A DNA stretch of 39,305 nucleotides from Vulcanimicrobiota bacterium (GTDB lineage: Bacteria > Vulcanimicrobiota > Vulcanimicrobiia > Vulcanimicrobiales > Vulcanimicrobiaceae): NCBI GenBank assembly GCA_019241305.1, contig JAFAXE010000203.1, forward strand, positions 1 to 39,305, written 5' to 3'. The position numbers were made by a program, and so were the translations under genes. Below are positions 11,997 through 18,408 of the stretch, in pieces. The number at the start of each line of letters is the position of its first letter. The first letter of the stretch is position 1. The notes under the pieces were generated by a model. It did not search any database and was not told the origin of the DNA. It saw only the letters and a program-made list of their open reading frames with translations.

Positions 11997-12524
11997 GTGA
12001 TCTTGTTCGTTCGGTTTTCGCTTACCGCGATCGCACTAACGCTTCTGCTCACCGCCCGATGGCCGGCTGGTGCTCCCGCATTGGCTGCTACCCCGGCGGG
12101 AACTCCGGTCGACGGCATCCGCTGTGATCAGGCCGAGGGTGCCGTCTTTCACATTCATCAACACCTCGCGATCTTTGCACACGGCAAACCCGTCGGGGTT
12201 CCACCCGACGTTGGCCGTCCGCTGGTTGCACAATGCCTCTATTGGCTCCACACGCACACCGACGACGGCATCATCCACGTCGAATCGCCGGTCTTTCGCA
12301 CGTTCACGTTGGGACAGTTTTTCGATGTGTGGGGCGAGGCCCTAACGCGGAACAACGTCGCCGGCACGAAGGTGCGCAAGGGCGACCTGCACATCTTCGT
12401 CAATGGGGCCCCGTATAAAGGAGATCCGCGCAGAATCGAGCTGGCGCAGCACACGGATATCGTTCTCGAGGCGGGAAGTCCGTACCATCGGCCCCAGCCG
12501 TTCACGGACTGGAAGGGACAATGA
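11997..12524 (+). CDS. secreted His-rich conserved-looking hypothetical protein
   Basis: A 175-residue protein starting at GTG 11997, supported by GAGGG just upstream. A signal peptide covers about residues 1-31 (FSLTAIALTLLLTARW, then an Ala-rich cleavage region). The mature part is rich in His in ordered clusters: FHIHQHLAIFAHGK, YWLHTHTDDGIIHVESP and KGDLHIFVNGAPY. Two Cys residues (in GIRCDQ and AQCLYW) may form a disulfide. The HxHxH and HTHTDD clusters suggest metal binding, but no catalytic family is recognised. The gene stands alone on its strand and converges with the serine hydrolase gene; their stops are 4 bases apart. Confidence 0.75.
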   Translation: MILFVRFSLTAIALTLLLTARWPAGAPALAATPAGTPVDGIRCDQAEGAVFHIHQHLAIFAHGKPVGVPPDVGRPLVAQCLYWLHTHTDDGIIHVESPVFRTFTLGQFFDVWGEALTRNNVAGTKVRKGDLHIFVNGAPYKGDPRRIELAQHTDIVLEAGSPYHRPQPFTDWKGQ

Positions 12525-12540
12525 CCCCTTAGAGCAGGGG
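12525..12540. terminator. small hairpin at convergent gene ends
   Basis: CCCCT (12525-12529) pairs with AGGGG (12536-12540) over a 6-base loop. It lies exactly between the stop of the His-rich protein and the end of the serine hydrolase gene. The stem is short and no T-run follows, so a bidirectional terminator is only a possibility. Confidence 0.25.
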
Positions 12541-13323
12541 CCGCAGCGCGTCCATGAATTGGACGAAGCGCGCGTCGCCCTGCGGGGATGACGGCAGCGC
12601 GGTGTAGACAACCAAGACGTAGCGGCGTCCCTGCGCAGTCTCGAGGATGCCTCCATCGTGGGTCACCTCATCCGTGTCCCCGGTCTTGTGACAAAATCGG
12701 TCGCCAGGCTGCAGGCCGCGCGCCAGCTTCTCGTTCCAGCGTTGGCGTCCCAACATCTCCAAGAGCAAAGCCGCGCCTGGAATGGCGCGTTGCGCGATTG
12801 CGGCGAAGAGCGCCGCCGCGTCGGCAGCGGGATGCGAGTTGCGGCCCGTCGCCTCGGGATCATCGATGAGGGGAAGCGCGCCCGAAAGTTTGCGACGGAT
12901 CGCCGTTCGGCGTAGGCCCAAGAGACGCACGAGGGCCGTCGCATGGTCCCTGCCGAGGCGGTCGATGAGCACGTTGGTTGCGACGTTGTCGGACCGCGTG
13001 ATCATGAGTTCGAGCAGCTCCGCGATGCTTGCCTCGTAGCCAGGGACGAGCGGAGAATCGAGGTCGTTCACGGTCATGTTTGGCTGCGAAACGGCTGCGG
13101 TCGATTCCAACGGCAGACCGCTTGCGAGTATCGCTGCGGCGAGCGGCACCTTGATCATGCTCGCCGGGTAGAGCGGCCGCCGTCCTGCGACGTGGGTCCA
13201 AGGCGAGCCGGCGATGAGCCGTTTGAGGACGAGGGAAGGGGACGTGAGCCCCGCGTCCTCGGCGAGTCGCCGCAGCACCGTTTCTGGGCTCCGCCCGGCC
13301 GTGAGGGTACCGCCCTTCACCAC
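12529..13323 (-). CDS. class A beta-lactamase-like serine hydrolase without signal peptide
   Basis: About 264 residues from GTG 13323 (281 from TTG 13374). Penicillin-recognising fold motifs are present: SxxK as PASMIKVP, SDN as TRSDNVATN and KTG as CHKTGDTDEV. The omega-loop region DDPEATGRNSHPAAD lacks a properly spaced ExxxN: the only Glu is 5 rather than 4 residues before Asn. Efficient beta-lactam deacylation is therefore doubtful, and a related peptidase or esterase role is possible. Neither start gives a signal peptide, and the frame is closed by a stop at 13405-13407, so export by Sec or Tat is not apparent. Neither start has a good ribosome site; 13323 keeps the upstream repeats non-coding. 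It is not part of the BlaI-type operon. Confidence 0.8.
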   Translation of the reverse strand: MVKGGTLTAGRSPETVLRRLAEDAGLTSPSLVLKRLIAGSPWTHVAGRRPLYPASMIKVPLAAAILASGLPLESTAAVSQPNMTVNDLDSPLVPGYEASIAELLELMITRSDNVATNVLIDRLGRDHATALVRLLGLRRTAIRRKLSGALPLIDDPEATGRNSHPAADAAALFAAIAQRAIPGAALLLEMLGRQRWNEKLARGLQPGDRFCHKTGDTDEVTHDGGILETAQGRRYVLVVYTALPSSPQGDARFVQFMDALRPLL

Positions 13324-13368
13324 CGGGCCACGTCTACGATGCTTCCTCGCACGTTCTTTCGGGCAGAT

Positions 13369-13423
13369 TTGCAAGCAGGTACTTGCACGAATGACGTGCC
13401 CATGTTACGCTCTGCGTGCAAGT
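13369..13423. promoter_or_regulatory. operator-like repeats in the divergent hydrolase/STAS intergenic region
   Basis: Three related half-sites: TTGCAAG (13369-13375), CTTGCAC (13382-13388) and GTGCAAG (13416-13422). The first two form an inverted repeat with 6-base spacing. ACTTGCAC (13381-13388) and GTGCAAGT (13416-13423) form a perfect 8-bp inverted repeat about 35 bp centre to centre. A candidate plus-strand promoter, TTGCAC (13383-13388), 17 bases, TACGCT (13406-13411), is bracketed by them. The TetR regulator in the downstream operon is a natural candidate binder. Confidence 0.5.
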
Positions 13424-13472
13424 GCTCACTCGCGTTTCCGTTCCTCTTCTTCGGTTTGAAAGGACTGTTCCG

Positions 13473-14486
13473 GTGAAGGACTCCGCTGCCCCAGCTAACG
13501 TCTTTCGGCTCGTCCCACCCTTCGTTCCAGCGGTCGCTGTCGAGCTGCGTGGCGCGGCGGTCGCCGCAATCCAGTCCGGCGCGCCACGCTACACCGTCGA
13601 TCTCGATGCCCTTCCGTACTTGGATTCACCGGTGATTGCAGCGCTCATCGCGACGCTCCGAGAGGTACGAGAACTCGGCGGGGAACTCGTGTTGGGCGTG
13701 ACGCGTCCTAAGCTGCTCGATACCTTGCGCGTCACGGCGCTCGACAAAGTATTTCGCATCGAGGCTCCGCCGGCGGAGTTCATCCCGCCGGAGACCGGCG
13801 CACCGCCCAACCAAACGATCCGCCGTTCACGACTGGTAACGGCCACCGTCGTGTGTCTCGGGCTCGTCGTCGGTCTGGCCCTCCGAGGGGCCGCACAAGG
13901 CACGGTCGCGCCGGACGCGATCGTCGCTCACGTCGTCGCCGCGAACCCGTCTCTCCAGTCCTATCAAGCCCGCGTGCACGTCGCCGTCCACATGCAAAGC
14001 TTCCCGTTCCTCGCGCCGCGCCTGGAAGGGAGCAGTTACTTCAAGCGCCCCGACAACTACGAGGTCGTGTTCGATCGGATTCCTAGCTATGCCAAAGGGT
14101 TCGATCGCCTCTACGCGGATATCGGCGATCCTACCAGCTGGCCCCGCCGCTTCAACATGACGGTGATTGGGGAAAGAACCGTCGACGGACATACGGATAC
14201 CGTGCTGCGGCTCGTCCAAAAAGTTCGCGGCATGATCGACCACGAGGATGTTGCGATCGACGAGGGGGCGTGGCGCATCGATCAGATGGAATGGCATTAC
14301 TACAACGGCGGTGCCATTACCATGACGCAGCAGTTTGCGCATGCAGGTTCCTGGAGCGTCCCCGTCGCGCAGCATGCGGTGATTCATATTCCTTACGTGC
14401 ATGCCGTCGCCGACGCACGGTACGACGACTACCGCACGAACGTGGCGATCGATGACGCCGTCTTTGTGAAGAACCGCGGCAAGTGA
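13473..14486 (+). CDS. STAS domain fused to a membrane anchor and LolA-like extracytoplasmic domain
   Basis: A 337-residue protein. Residues 1-105 form a STAS domain of the anti-sigma-factor-antagonist type, with VDLDALPYLDSPVIAALIATL around the normally phosphorylated Ser and a second helix ELGGELVLGVTRPKLLDTL. A hydrophobic helix (about 119-140, VTATVVCLGLVVGLAL) follows, then about 200 residues resembling LolA/outer-membrane lipoprotein-sorting proteins (ANPSLQSYQARVHV, GSSYFKRPDNYEVVF, IDQMEWHYYNGGAI). GTG 13473 is chosen because AAAGGA lies 8 bases upstream; the open frame extends to 13416 without a comparable site. The reading frame is continuous, so this is a true fusion unless a sequencing error joins two genes. 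Its stop overlaps the TetR start. A cytoplasmic STAS linked to a periplasmic domain suggests signalling across the membrane. Confidence 0.72.
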   Translation: MKDSAAPANVFRLVPPFVPAVAVELRGAAVAAIQSGAPRYTVDLDALPYLDSPVIAALIATLREVRELGGELVLGVTRPKLLDTLRVTALDKVFRIEAPPAEFIPPETGAPPNQTIRRSRLVTATVVCLGLVVGLALRGAAQGTVAPDAIVAHVVAANPSLQSYQARVHVAVHMQSFPFLAPRLEGSSYFKRPDNYEVVFDRIPSYAKGFDRLYADIGDPTSWPRRFNMTVIGERTVDGHTDTVLRLVQKVRGMIDHEDVAIDEGAWRIDQMEWHYYNGGAITMTQQFAHAGSWSVPVAQHAVIHIPYVHAVADARYDDYRTNVAIDDAVFVKNRGK

Positions 14487-15088
14487 AGCTCTACGAGGGC
14501 GCACCGAAGGCATCCGACGATACGCACGAGCGGATTCTGGCGGCCGCGCGTGACCTGTTCGCGCTGAAAGGGAGCCGGGGCACGACGACGCGCGAAGTCG
14601 CCGACCGTGCAGGCGTCAACGAGGCGACCGTCTTTCGTCATTTCGGGACGAAACAGGCGCTCTTGCACGCGATGCTGGAGCGACACTGCGAGTCGCAGGA
14701 CAGAATGCGCGAATCGATCGCGGCTCTGCGCGGCCCCATTCGAGAGCAGCTCTGCGCGCTCGGGCACGGCGCGATCGAGAGCATCAAACGTAAGGAAGAT
14801 CTGATTCGCGTCGGTCTCGCGGAACAGGTAACTGATCCGGACGGGAGCGCGATGACCTGGCGCGGGCCGATGGGAGCGCTCTGCGTCCTCAGCGACTATA
14901 TGAAAGGCCGCATCGCTGCCGGCGAACTCGTGGGAGACCCCGACATGCTCGCCCGCAGTTTCATGTCGTTCTGGTTCTCGTACGTTATGGGACGCCGGAT
15001 CTGGAACGTCGCGGATCAGCCGCCCGAACGGACGCGCTTCGTCGCTCAGTGCGTCGAACTGTTCTTGAGAGGTGCGCTCCCCCGCTAA
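14483..15088 (+). CDS. TetR-family transcriptional regulator
   Basis: A 201-residue regulator. The N-terminal helix-turn-helix (about 13-60) has ERILAAARDLFALKG, TTTREVADRAGVNEATVFRHFGTKQALL, a standard TetR pattern. The C-terminal helical half (about 70-200) would bind a ligand and dimerise; no ligand can be inferred. It starts at GTG 14483 within the upstream stop and its TAA shares a base with the ATG of the next gene, so it is embedded in an export operon. TetR regulators in such a place usually repress the adaptor/channel genes; the repeats at 13369-13423 are candidate sites. Confidence 0.92.
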   Translation: MKLYEGAPKASDDTHERILAAARDLFALKGSRGTTTREVADRAGVNEATVFRHFGTKQALLHAMLERHCESQDRMRESIAALRGPIREQLCALGHGAIESIKRKEDLIRVGLAEQVTDPDGSAMTWRGPMGALCVLSDYMKGRIAAGELVGDPDMLARSFMSFWFSYVMGRRIWNVADQPPERTRFVAQCVELFLRGALPR

Positions 15089-16473
15089 TGGAGCGCGGGC
15101 AAACGACGACGGCACCACCGCCGCCGCGAGCGCAACCCGCTGCGGCTCCACCGCGCACGGAACGAGAAGCCACGAAACGCCCGCCCGTCGTCCGCACGGT
15201 CGTGATCGTCGTCGTGGCGATCGCCGTGCTTGCGGCGCTGATCGCGGCCGTGCGCTATTTCGCCTACGCCAGCTCGCATGAAACCACGGACGATGCGAAA
15301 ATCGATGCGAACCAAATCCAGGTGACAAGCAAAATCACCGAACGCGTCGACCGGGTCTTGGTCGATACCAACCAGTACGTCCACAAGGGTCAACTGCTCA
15401 TTCAATTGGACGATCGTGACGAGCGCGCGCGGCTCGAGAACGCGCTGGCAACGAGAAACGCCTACCGTGCGCAGGAAAATGCGGCGCAAGCGAACGTCGC
15501 GCTGACGCGTGACGAGCAGGCCGCGCAAAACCAGCAAAGCCGTGGTGCGATCGAATCGGCGCAAGCCGGCGTCGCGAGCGCGGGAGAGCAGGCGCAAGCG
15601 GCGCAGCAGCAAGTTGGCGTGGCGTCGGCCGGCGTCGCTGATGCCGAAGCGCAGTTGCGCGCCGCGCAGTCGGCCGTGCCGGGAGCACTTCAAAACCTGC
15701 GCAAGGCTCAGGCCGATCTTGCCCGTACGTCATCGCTCGTTTCCACGGGCGACATCGCACGTTCGCAGCTCGATTCTGCGCGTGCAGCCGAAAAAGCGGC
15801 GAGCTCGAATTACGCCCAAACGGAAGCCAACGTCGGCGCTGCGCAAGCCAACGTGAGCTCGGCAAGACAAAAACTCGCCGCGCAGGCGTCTACCGCGAGC
15901 GGCGCCTCGTCTTCGATCGGGACGAGTCAGGGAAACGTCGTGACCGCGCAGGGCAAACTCGCGGAAAGCGCGTCGCCGAATCGCGTCGCTGCGCAACAAG
16001 CCAGCGCACAGGCCGCCGGTGCGCAAGTGGCGACCGCCCAAACGAGCGTCAATCTCGCGCAAAACGATCTGTCGTACACGCAAATACGTTCGCCCATCGA
16101 CGGGTACGTCGGTCAGAAGAGCGTCGACATTGGACAAACGGTCGCGCCGGGCACGCCGCTGTTGACGATCGTCCCCGTCAGGGACGTCTACATCACGGCG
16201 AATTACAAGGAAACCCAGTTGGGCCGCATCCGGGTCGGTCAGCCGGTGGACATCAACGTGGATGCGTACAGCGGGGTGAAGTTTCACGGTTACGTGGACA
16301 ACATCTCGCCTGCGTCGCAGAACACGTTTTCGCTCGTCCCGGCGCAGAACGCGTCGGGGAACTTCGTCAAGGTCACGCAGCGTCTACCGGTCCGTATCCG
16401 ATTCATCGAACCAGATGCGCGTTACGCGCTGCGGCCCGGGATGTCGGTCGAAACCTCCATCAAAGTGAAATAA
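15088..16473 (+). CDS. HlyD/EmrA-type membrane-fusion (periplasmic adaptor) protein
   Basis: A 461-residue adaptor that links an inner-membrane pump to an outer-membrane channel. A Pro/Ala-rich cytoplasmic tail (1-34) leads to one membrane helix (about 35-58), then the conserved start of the barrel domain TTDDAKIDANQIQV and lipoyl half VDRVLVDTNQYVHKGQLLIQLDD. A long Ala/Gln-rich coiled coil (about 115-325) follows. The second lipoyl half contains YTQIRSPIDGYVGQKSVDIGQTV, then the beta-barrel ITANYKETQLGRIRVGQPVDI. The ATG at 15088 overlaps the tetR stop (TAATG). A longer frame to 15049 would overlap tetR further. No pump gene is adjacent, which is unusual. Confidence 0.92.
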   Translation: MERGQTTTAPPPPRAQPAAAPPRTEREATKRPPVVRTVVIVVVAIAVLAALIAAVRYFAYASSHETTDDAKIDANQIQVTSKITERVDRVLVDTNQYVHKGQLLIQLDDRDERARLENALATRNAYRAQENAAQANVALTRDEQAAQNQQSRGAIESAQAGVASAGEQAQAAQQQVGVASAGVADAEAQLRAAQSAVPGALQNLRKAQADLARTSSLVSTGDIARSQLDSARAAEKAASSNYAQTEANVGAAQANVSSARQKLAAQASTASGASSSIGTSQGNVVTAQGKLAESASPNRVAAQQASAQAAGAQVATAQTSVNLAQNDLSYTQIRSPIDGYVGQKSVDIGQTVAPGTPLLTIVPVRDVYITANYKETQLGRIRVGQPVDINVDAYSGVKFHGYVDNISPASQNTFSLVPAQNASGNFVKVTQRLPVRIRFIEPDARYALRPGMSVETSIKVK

Positions 16474-16476
16474 GCG

Positions 16477-18408
16477 ATGGGCACGCAGTTCCGCGGTGCG
16501 CGTGTATCGGCGCACCTTGCGGTGCCGCTTGCGGCCGGTCTGCTTTTGAGCTGCTCGATACCCGGATTTGGCGCCCAGCCCGTCCCAGCCCCATTTCCGG
16601 TGACGCCGCCGGTCACGACGGTGACGCCGGCTCCCGCATCACCGGTTCCGCGTGGTCTCGTTCTCCCGCCGGTCCCTGCCGTCGAACCGGGATATCGTGC
16701 GCCGGCGGCGACCGTTCCGACCGGTACGATCGTCGGCGTGACGCAGCAGCCGTTCGTCGGTATCGCGTTGAACGACGCGATTGCGCTGGCACTGGTGCGC
16801 AACACGGATCTCATCGTCTCTGCAGAAAACCGCCGAATCGCCGGTTACCGCATCGTGGCCGCGGAAGGCGCGTACGACGTGCGGTTTGCGGTCACGCCGT
16901 CGTACCAGTACCAGGTGACGGCCCCGCTCAGTCCCTTTCAGGCTGGGCCGGGAGGCGGTCCCATCACGCAAACGACCGGTGGATTGAGCGGTTCGTTTTC
17001 GGGTCAGACGCAATCGGGAACGCAATTTGCCGTCGGCTATTCGGGGGAAGGGATCCGTTCCAACAATACAGCCAACGGCTTCAATCCGTATTACCAAAGC
17101 GCGCTTTCGTTCAACGTCACACAGCCGCTCCTGCGCGGGCGCTTCACGGAAGCGCGGCGGCAACTGGAACTGGCACGGATCAATGCCGCCGCTGCCAGTG
17201 ACTCGACGGCGCTCACCGCCTCCAACACCATCACGAGCGTCGCCGAAACATATTGGGATCTGGTCGCCGCCTGGCGTAACGTAGCGATTCAGGAAGAGGC
17301 CTTACGTCAAGTGCAGGCCCAAGCGCAGAGCAACGAGCGGCTCGTGCGCCGCGGCGCGGCCGCGCCGGTCGAGGTGGTGGAATCGAACACGCAGGTGAGC
17401 GTGTATCAAGACAACGTGCTCTCGGGGCTACAAAATGTGGCCCGCCTTCAGAACCAATTGAAACAAACGATGCTTGCCGATCCCGCGGACCCGATTTGGA
17501 TGGCCAACCTCGTACCGACGTCGCCTGCGAAGGATCTTCCGCGCGAGCCGTCACTCGGCGACGTGCTCTTGGCGGCCCTCCGCAATCGCCCTGAAGTCGC
17601 GCAGCTGGCAGAAGAGCGCCGGCAGAATGACGTCGAGCTGGCGTACGCTCGCGACCAAGCCCGTCCTCAGGTCGATGTCAGCCTTGGCTACACCTCAAAC
17701 GGGTTTGCGGGCGAGCCGGCGAGTTTGCTCGCGAATCCGATTTTTTCGGTGTTCGGGCCCGTCTTTACGTCCGTCGATCAGCTCATCGCGTACGCCGACA
17801 TGCACGGCGCCAAGATCCCTCCCTTGCACGTCACCTTTCCGTCTCCGCCGCCGGCGTTCATCGGTGGCTTGGGTACCGCGATGACGAACCTGCTCGCCAA
17901 CCGCCTTCCGGCCGTGGCGCTCTCGGTAACGGTTGGCGTCCCATTGCGCAACCGTACCGCTCGCGCGAACTTTGCCGTCGCGCAAGAACAACAACAACAG
18001 CTCACCGTGCAGCAGGCCGCACTGGTGCAGCGAATCGCTTTTGAAGCGCGCAACGCCTTGCAAACGTTGCAAGCGGCGCGCTCACGTCTCGTCGCAGCGC
18101 GTGCCGGCCGCATTGCGGCGGAACGCGTCTATTCAAGCGAGCAACGTAAGTTTCGCGCCGGCACCTCCACGACGTTCTTGGTCTTGCAGCGACAAACCGA
18201 TGTTGCCACGCAGCGAGGACGCGAGCTGCAAGCGCAGACCGACCTCAACAAGGCCGTCGTCGAACTGGACCGCGTGAGCGGGACGATTCTCGACAGCAAT
18301 GGTTTTACCATCACCTCCGCTGGTTCCGGACCGGTCCCGGTCACGACGCTTCCAGCGCGTCCCTCGCCCGCGCCAGCGGCGACGCTTTCTCCCTTGCCAC
18401 TGCCGTAA
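16477..18408 (+). CDS. TolC-family outer-membrane efflux channel
   Basis: A 643-residue protein, longer than E. coli TolC (about 490). The N-terminal hydrophobic segment LAVPLAAGLLLSCSIP contains LLSC, a possible lipobox, as in OprM-type lipoprotein channels. A Pro-rich stretch (about 35-80) precedes two outer-membrane efflux repeats. The first carries GIALNDAIALALVRNTDLI, YQSALSFNVTQPLLRGRFTEARRQLELARI and RNVAIQEEALRQVQAQAQSN. The second carries ALRNRPEVAQLAEERRQNDVELAYARDQARPQ and a final helix region RAGTSTTFLVLQRQTDVATQRGRELQAQTDLNKAVVEL. It starts 3 bases after the HlyD stop and belongs to the same operon. The protein would span the outer membrane and periplasm. Confidence 0.92.
   Translation: MGTQFRGARVSAHLAVPLAAGLLLSCSIPGFGAQPVPAPFPVTPPVTTVTPAPASPVPRGLVLPPVPAVEPGYRAPAATVPTGTIVGVTQQPFVGIALNDAIALALVRNTDLIVSAENRRIAGYRIVAAEGAYDVRFAVTPSYQYQVTAPLSPFQAGPGGGPITQTTGGLSGSFSGQTQSGTQFAVGYSGEGIRSNNTANGFNPYYQSALSFNVTQPLLRGRFTEARRQLELARINAAAASDSTALTASNTITSVAETYWDLVAAWRNVAIQEEALRQVQAQAQSNERLVRRGAAAPVEVVESNTQVSVYQDNVLSGLQNVARLQNQLKQTMLADPADPIWMANLVPTSPAKDLPREPSLGDVLLAALRNRPEVAQLAEERRQNDVELAYARDQARPQVDVSLGYTSNGFAGEPASLLANPIFSVFGPVFTSVDQLIAYADMHGAKIPPLHVTFPSPPPAFIGGLGTAMTNLLANRLPAVALSVTVGVPLRNRTARANFAVAQEQQQQLTVQQAALVQRIAFEARNALQTLQAARSRLVAARAGRIAAERVYSSEQRKFRAGTSTTFLVLQRQTDVATQRGRELQAQTDLNKAVVELDRVSGTILDSNGFTITSAGSGPVPVTTLPARPSPAPAATLSPLPLP

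Follow-up and report, generated by a model that had tools for sequence, protein, structure and literature searches.

A STAS–LolA-fold gene fusion with a signal-peptide-like linker heads a TetR-linked export operon

Introduction

RseB and MucB carry a LolA-like fold in a periplasmic sensor and act on a separate anti-sigma factor, through a segment of it that lies in the periplasm; we know of no STAS domain and no exporter operon in these systems. LolA of the Lol pathway takes lipoproteins from LolCDE to LolB. SpoIIAA and RsbV are soluble phosphoswitch proteins of the STAS fold, encoded next to kinase and sigma genes; they have a conserved phosphorylatable Ser/Thr after an Asp and bind a HATPase anti-sigma factor. 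EmrAB-TolC is a tripartite pump of jointly encoded adaptor, MFS pump, and channel, and the STAS and LolA-fold genes that head the operon described here are, to our knowledge, no part of it. MlaB is a single-domain STAS protein acting as a transporter accessory together with MlaF in the phospholipid ABC transporter (PMC7367683), and LprG is a LolA-fold periplasmic protein that shares an operon with the DHA2-class MFS pump Rv1410 in mycobacteria (PMC10576003).

We analysed a stretch of 39,305 nucleotides from a Vulcanimicrobiota genome (hereafter the window), in which a STAS domain and a LolA-fold domain are encoded by one gene. The locus may be comparable to that of LprG and Rv1410: at three relative loci, the operon includes an MFS pump gene, typed as EmrB (also called DHA2) at one of them; the window itself has no MFS gene. 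LprG is a lipoprotein, whereas the window protein has no Cys after its hydrophobic core, its only Cys being Cys128 inside the core, and the operon here adds a TetR gene, an EmrA-type adaptor, a TolC-type channel, and a STAS domain. The likeness to EmrAB-TolC-type operons that have a TetR regulator extends to the adaptor, the outer-membrane channel, the local repressor, the palindromic operator, and, in relatives, the DHA2 pump, but in the window the adaptor and channel have no MFS gene between positions 16473 and 16477. In contrast to the MlaB system, the operon contains no ABC ATPase, the STAS domain is covalently joined to an exported protein, and its switch residue is not conserved. The fused gene shares the STAS fold with SpoIIAA and RsbV, whereas the counterpart of their gene arrangement in this genome is a module at another locus. 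Among the matches listed in the literature searched (titles and the starts of abstracts), no description of a STAS–LolA fusion was found, nor was an export cassette of STAS, LolA-fold carrier, TetR, and divergent beta-lactamase-fold protein found in that literature.

A STAS domain and a LolA fold in one frame

The fused gene and its parts are as follows.

13473..14486, + strand: fused gene, STAS – signal-peptide-like helix – LolA-fold domain (337 aa, GTG start)
13485..13775, + strand: STAS domain, residues ~5–101 (PF01740, E 2.3e-8)
13626..13628, + strand: Ser52, aligned by us with the STAS phospho-Ser/Thr position
13821..13898, + strand: internal signal-peptide-like segment, consisting of RRSR, a 17-residue core (13833–13883), and a cleavage-like GAA/Q
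13899..14483, + strand: LolA-fold domain, residues ~143–337 (structural matches)

As read in the window, the frame is intact and stops at 14486. Its likeliest start, judging from the sequence, is the GTG at 13473, with AAGGA at 13460–13464 eight bases ahead of it. In a Pfam profile search, the STAS half scored 34.2 bits with PF01740 against a curated cut-off of 22.6, and comparison with known structures gave Z scores of 11.6 to 2ka5 (2.3 Å, 96 aligned residues) and 11.4 to 1vc1. No Pfam family exceeded its cut-off on the C-terminal half; PF17131 (LolA_like) reached 11.8 bits against a cut-off of 30, over a 41-residue stretch. AlphaFold2 gave a mean pLDDT of 87.1 for the whole fused protein and 88.9 for the C-terminal half modelled alone. 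The models matched 3bk5 (Z 16.9), 4z48 (16.6), 9tp6 (16.1), and 3buu (14.1), and matched the classical LolA of Pseudomonas aeruginosa, 2w7q, with Z 9.8; LprG was also present in the Foldseek list of fold matches. The predicted fold, a LolA-like half barrel, places the C-terminal half in the LolA superfamily. The original prediction of a STAS domain joined to a LolA-like domain is thereby borne out, since both folds are confidently modelled and the fusion is found in 22 of 92 orthologous loci.

The fusion recurs in one clade of relatives

The fused protein was searched against 149 genomes of the phylum and found matches in 147. All matches with E <= 2.2e-40 were taken as orthologous LolA loci (92 in total) and were sorted with our own profiles. 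Three STAS-only loci, whose total number is at least three, were taken from a separate search, giving 95 loci. At 22 of the 92 LolA loci, STAS and LolA are fused in one uninterrupted frame. At another 39 they are separate adjacent genes, 36 in different frames and three in a shared frame interrupted by a stop. The remaining 31, one of which lies at a contig edge, have no adjoining STAS. The fusions come from 10 genera and two families, and one of them (G008) is on a single-contig genome of 3.5 Mb.

An assembly or sequencing error that joined two frames had been considered as an explanation, with the expectation in that case that homologues always exist as two genes. They do not, although 39 loci have separate adjacent genes and 31 lack an adjacent STAS. 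Because the same fusion recurs in 22 of the 92 orthologous loci, which come from separate genomes including the single-contig one, we rejected this explanation, for which no evidence was found and whose remaining probability is negligible. The gene is a real and lasting fusion of two neighbouring genes, of an unusual kind, in a recognisable type of export operon.

In the tree of these loci, all 22 fused rows fall within one clade of 26 rows (SH-aLRT 97), which contains no split row; its other four rows (G037b, G021, G005, and G098b) are without STAS. The split row of G031 is the sister of this clade, and the second main clade consists of 38 split and 27 STAS-less rows. Four changes of the fused label are needed on the tree, of which the starred branches force at least three. 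An earlier tree of 36 rows is compatible with this one, but left G031 unresolved among the fused rows. Since the 26-row clade holds no split row, the tree suggests one fusion and later losses of STAS; the fusion probably had a single origin followed by some such losses, the tree alone being no proof.

Two further arrangements were also seen. In G037, the fused gene has a second copy (L049, 7311–8156) that lacks most of STAS but keeps the start of the frame and a signal-like core. At L116, L117, and L118 (G082, G080, and G084), outside the fused clade, STAS and LolA share a frame and are separated by one stop codon.

The linker is equivalent to the signal peptide of separate LolA genes

The two domains are linked by a single basic and hydrophobic stretch, RRSR-LVTATVVCLGLVVGLAL, followed by GAAQG. 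In the AlphaFold2 model of the whole protein, residues 109–128 are of low confidence, and no long helix runs across the hydrophobic core. At split loci, LolA usually begins at a start codon of its own, which has a ribosome-binding-site-like motif and lies shortly before a basic, hydrophobic segment. Such a start before the core was found in 26 of the 39 split loci versus one of the 22 fused genes. The exception is G028, where a GTG with a ribosome-binding-site-like motif just before the core makes dual translation possible. An internal translation start in the fused gene of the window was ruled out, because there is no ATG, GTG, or TTG between the end of the STAS domain and the core. The median hydropathy and length of the core are 2.53 and 18 residues in the fused proteins, and 2.69 and 19 residues in the 36 split loci with different frames.

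An AxA motif directly follows the core in 20 of 21 scorable fused proteins, compared to 15.1 expected from shuffling each stretch; G098a, in which no anchor was found, was left out of the 22 rows, and related rows were counted separately. In the 36 other-frame split loci, the motif was seen 25 times versus 23.8 expected from shuffles. The excess in the fused c-regions is modest, and such Ala-rich stretches often contain AxA by chance. The c-region of the window protein is the exception among the scored fused proteins and has a weaker GAA instead.

The linker is thus an inherited signal peptide, equivalent to that of the separate LolA genes. This equivalence and the retention of cleavage-like motifs suggest that signal peptidase I probably separates the two halves, and cleavage of the fused protein at the predicted site is likely. 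The linker had originally been described as a membrane helix. A hydrophobic segment is indeed present there, but it corresponds to the cleavable type of signal peptide seen in stand-alone LolA genes.

The operon encodes an adaptor and a channel, separated by a pump-sized gap at most loci where both were seen

Three genes follow the fused gene closely.

14483..15088, + strand: TetR-family regulator (PF00440 63.9 bits, PF14246 30.4 bits), overlapping the stop codon of the fused gene
15085..16473, + strand: HlyD-family periplasmic adaptor, nearest to EmrA (PF16576 62.3 bits), overlapping the tetR stop
16477..18408, + strand: TolC-like outer-membrane efflux protein (PF02321 105.2 bits), three bases after the adaptor

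The adaptor scored 125.8 with TIGR01730, over its cut-off, and 227.2 with TIGR00998, under the cut-off of 390.8. As originally proposed, the fused gene therefore heads an export operon, with TetR, an EmrA/HlyD-type adaptor, and a TolC-type channel following it; the MFS gene that is usual in relatives is missing here. Among the operon genes typed, there was no lol gene, no kinase, no sigma gene, and no HATPase anti-sigma gene. TetR adjoins the STAS/LolA part in 87 of the 95 loci. At all three STAS-only loci, STAS still lies ahead of TetR and the HlyD adaptor, indicating that the STAS and LolA modules can each stay with the operon without the other.

The adaptor and channel genes of the window abut (16473/16477), leaving no room for an MFS pump gene. 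Both neighbours were seen at 29 loci, and a gap of EmrB size separates adaptor and channel in 20 of them and is absent in nine, the window included. The gene in the gap was typed at three loci and was of the MFS type at each: EmrB at L040 (TIGR00711, 411.7 bits) and MFS_1 at L042 and L050. The possibility that STAS is an accessory tied to an adjacent EmrB was examined and rejected, because EmrB-sized gaps are no commoner at loci with STAS (16/23) than at those without (4/6); nothing in these counts links STAS to the pump protein itself. The genome of the window has ten EmrB-profile matches elsewhere. With regard to a pump supplied in trans, the short sequences flanking six of these EmrB-like loci were checked and gave no match to any of eight window proteins.

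Upstream of the operon, at 11997–12521 (+ strand), the window encodes a small, His-rich (HIHQHL...) conserved protein with no significant Pfam match. Its homologues (49–65% identity) lie upstream of the operon, at varying distances, in several relatives.

A double palindrome and a divergent beta-lactamase-fold gene precede the operon

The region upstream of the fused gene contains the following features.

12529..13374, − strand: divergent beta-lactamase-fold gene (PF13354 127.8 bits), with its 5' end at operator box 1
13370..13387, no strand assigned: operator box 1, TGCAAGCAGGTACTTGCA, one mismatch to TGCAAGTN4ACTTGCA, the best match in the genome
13403..13411, + strand: extended -10-like TGT-TACGCT, 17 bases after the -35-like hexamer (read from the sequence; region conserved in relatives)
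13417..13434, no strand assigned: operator box 2, TGCAAGTGCTCACTCGCG, two mismatches, 47 bases after box 1

The right arm of box 1 forms a -35-like TTGCAC (13383–13388), and the two boxes flank the -35-like and extended -10-like elements. The consensus of the boxes is TGCAAGT-N4-ACTTGCA. A box pair was seen at 69 loci, and at 60 of these the spacing is 47–48 bases. The complete 2.8 Mb genome contains just three sites with <=2 mismatches, and boxes 1 and 2 account for two of them. An upstream box with <=3 mismatches was found at 87 of 87 TetR-linked loci versus none of the eight loci without TetR; the motif was derived from the loci in which it was later counted, so that only the link to TetR and the rarity in the window genome are at all independent. 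This distribution makes the predicted autoregulation of the whole operon by TetR, through the double palindrome, very likely.

The divergent beta-lactamase-fold gene occupies the same place at 61 of the 87 TetR-linked loci and at none of the other eight. Each of the three motifs SxxK, S[DG]N, and K[TS]G occurs in 59 of the 61 homologues. A hydrophobic N-terminal segment above the threshold was detected in only two of the 61, and the protein thus looks cytoplasmic, which would be odd for a beta-lactamase.

The STAS switch site is poorly conserved

The window protein retains Asp51-Ser52 at the STAS switch site, and conservation of a phosphorylatable Ser had been proposed as a check. Across the orthologues the site is not conserved: the switch position is Ser or Thr in only 27 of 64 STAS copies (10/22 fused, 15/39 split, and 2/3 STAS-only), and the preceding Asp is kept in six of the 22 fused copies. 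Moreover, the anti-sigma antagonist profile TIGR00377 gave 35.7 bits, under its cut-off of 53.45. A canonical STAS (DSTGLG) – HATPase – sigma-70 module is encoded elsewhere in the same genome (L077, 4973–6568, − strand).

Omega for the STAS part ranged from 0.05 to 0.70 over 14 pairs, namely 0.05–0.44 in eight split pairs and 0.18–0.70 in six fused pairs. The LolA part gave 0.05–0.29. These values suggest that STAS is mostly under purifying selection. In five of the six fused pairs, omega of STAS exceeds that of LolA, raising the possibility that the fused STAS is drifting.

A possible mechanism and its alternatives

Our best reading, to which we assign a probability of roughly 0.5, is that the gene is a fusion in a TetR-repressed operon, cut by signal peptidase I into a LolA-fold carrier and a STAS exporter accessory. 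In this mechanism, TetR would hold the operon down until a compound releases it, as the operator suggests. The fused chain would insert N-in/C-out by means of the old signal peptide, which would place STAS on the cytoplasmic side and the LolA fold on the opposite one. Signal peptidase I would then cut most or all copies, so that the LolA-fold domain is set free in the periplasm while STAS remains tethered at the inner face of the inner membrane. The LolA-fold domain may act as a carrier in the periplasm, accepting a hydrophobic substrate from an EmrB-type MFS pump and helping to deliver it to the EmrA/TolC conduit or to the outer membrane, in the way that LprG does for Rv1410. In the weakest step, STAS might be a cytoplasmic exporter accessory acting like MlaB, rather than an anti-sigma antagonist; by analogy, we take MlaB as the better guide to its role.

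The original prediction was that the gene reports an envelope state to a cytoplasmic partner. An uncut transmembrane reporter of this kind, in which the LolA fold senses the envelope and STAS signals to an anti-sigma factor or another partner, could draw on RseB and MucB, which have the same fold and are among the structural matches (Foldseek; Z 6.1–7.2), on the Ser at the switch position of the window protein, and on the STAS–HATPase–sigma module as a possible target. Against it stand the relatives: the two parts are made separately at 39 of the 92 orthologous loci, which makes a physical connection through the membrane dispensable, and 31 of the 92 have no adjacent STAS. The degenerate switch site, the sub-threshold TIGR00377 score, the retained cleavage-like motifs, and the presence of the canonical sigma module at a different locus also argue against it. 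None of the typed operon genes encodes a sigma factor or a kinase, and the regulatory route that is visible is the TetR gene with its operator. We regard such a reporter as quite improbable; transmembrane signalling by the fused protein is possible and finds little support. A tether that is likewise left uncut, in which the whole protein couples the periplasmic carrier to STAS at the exporter and loading of the carrier gates the pump, is a more tenable idea, though still an unlikely one. The fusion has been retained by one long clade across 10 genera, and, with a start and ribosome-binding-site-like motif before the core in only one of the 22 fused genes, both halves would be made as one chain. 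However, the signal-like c-region has been kept, relatives manage with separate chains, and STAS is uncorrelated with an adjacent EmrB-sized gene. It also seems improbable that the protein is an uncut single-pass exporter subunit, in which the former signal peptide connects a hydrophobe-binding LolA fold in the periplasm to the cytoplasmic STAS domain and loading of the carrier directly controls the pump or lifts repression by TetR.

It is about equally doubtful that STAS is a hitch-hiker or a decaying remnant, being lost from a protein in which only the LolA part matters. The 31 LolA loci without adjacent STAS could be read in this way, and so could G037b, which resembles a fused copy in which most of STAS is absent, the omega of up to 0.70 for STAS in one fused pair, and the degenerate switch motif. 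The eight split pairs, with STAS omega of 0.05–0.44, speak against it, as do the three STAS-only loci, all of which keep STAS with TetR and HlyD without LolA.

The locus provides a clear natural case in which the gene of a cytoplasmic protein was fused ahead of that of an exported one, with the signal peptide caught between them and long kept. It allows two questions to be put to the test: are internal signal peptides of this kind cut in bacteria, and do STAS domains work for MFS exporters in the way that MlaB works for an ABC transporter? The predicted TetR-controlled export cassette is widespread in one little-studied lineage.

Related loci in named collections and paralogues

A scan of a named genome collection, which rests on short exact peptides and reaches close relatives only, returned five loci in records named Eremiobacterota/Eremiobacteria or plain 'bacterium'. 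In four of them, STAS and LolA occupy separate open frames; the fifth (L039) has LolA only. A stand-alone LolA-fold paralogue without STAS and with about 31% identity was also seen (G000:C153:29291–29932; L074, 7298–7939). This paralogue adjoins a frame that, as read from its first residues, is MoaA-like radical-SAM, and paralogues of its kind recur across the phylum.
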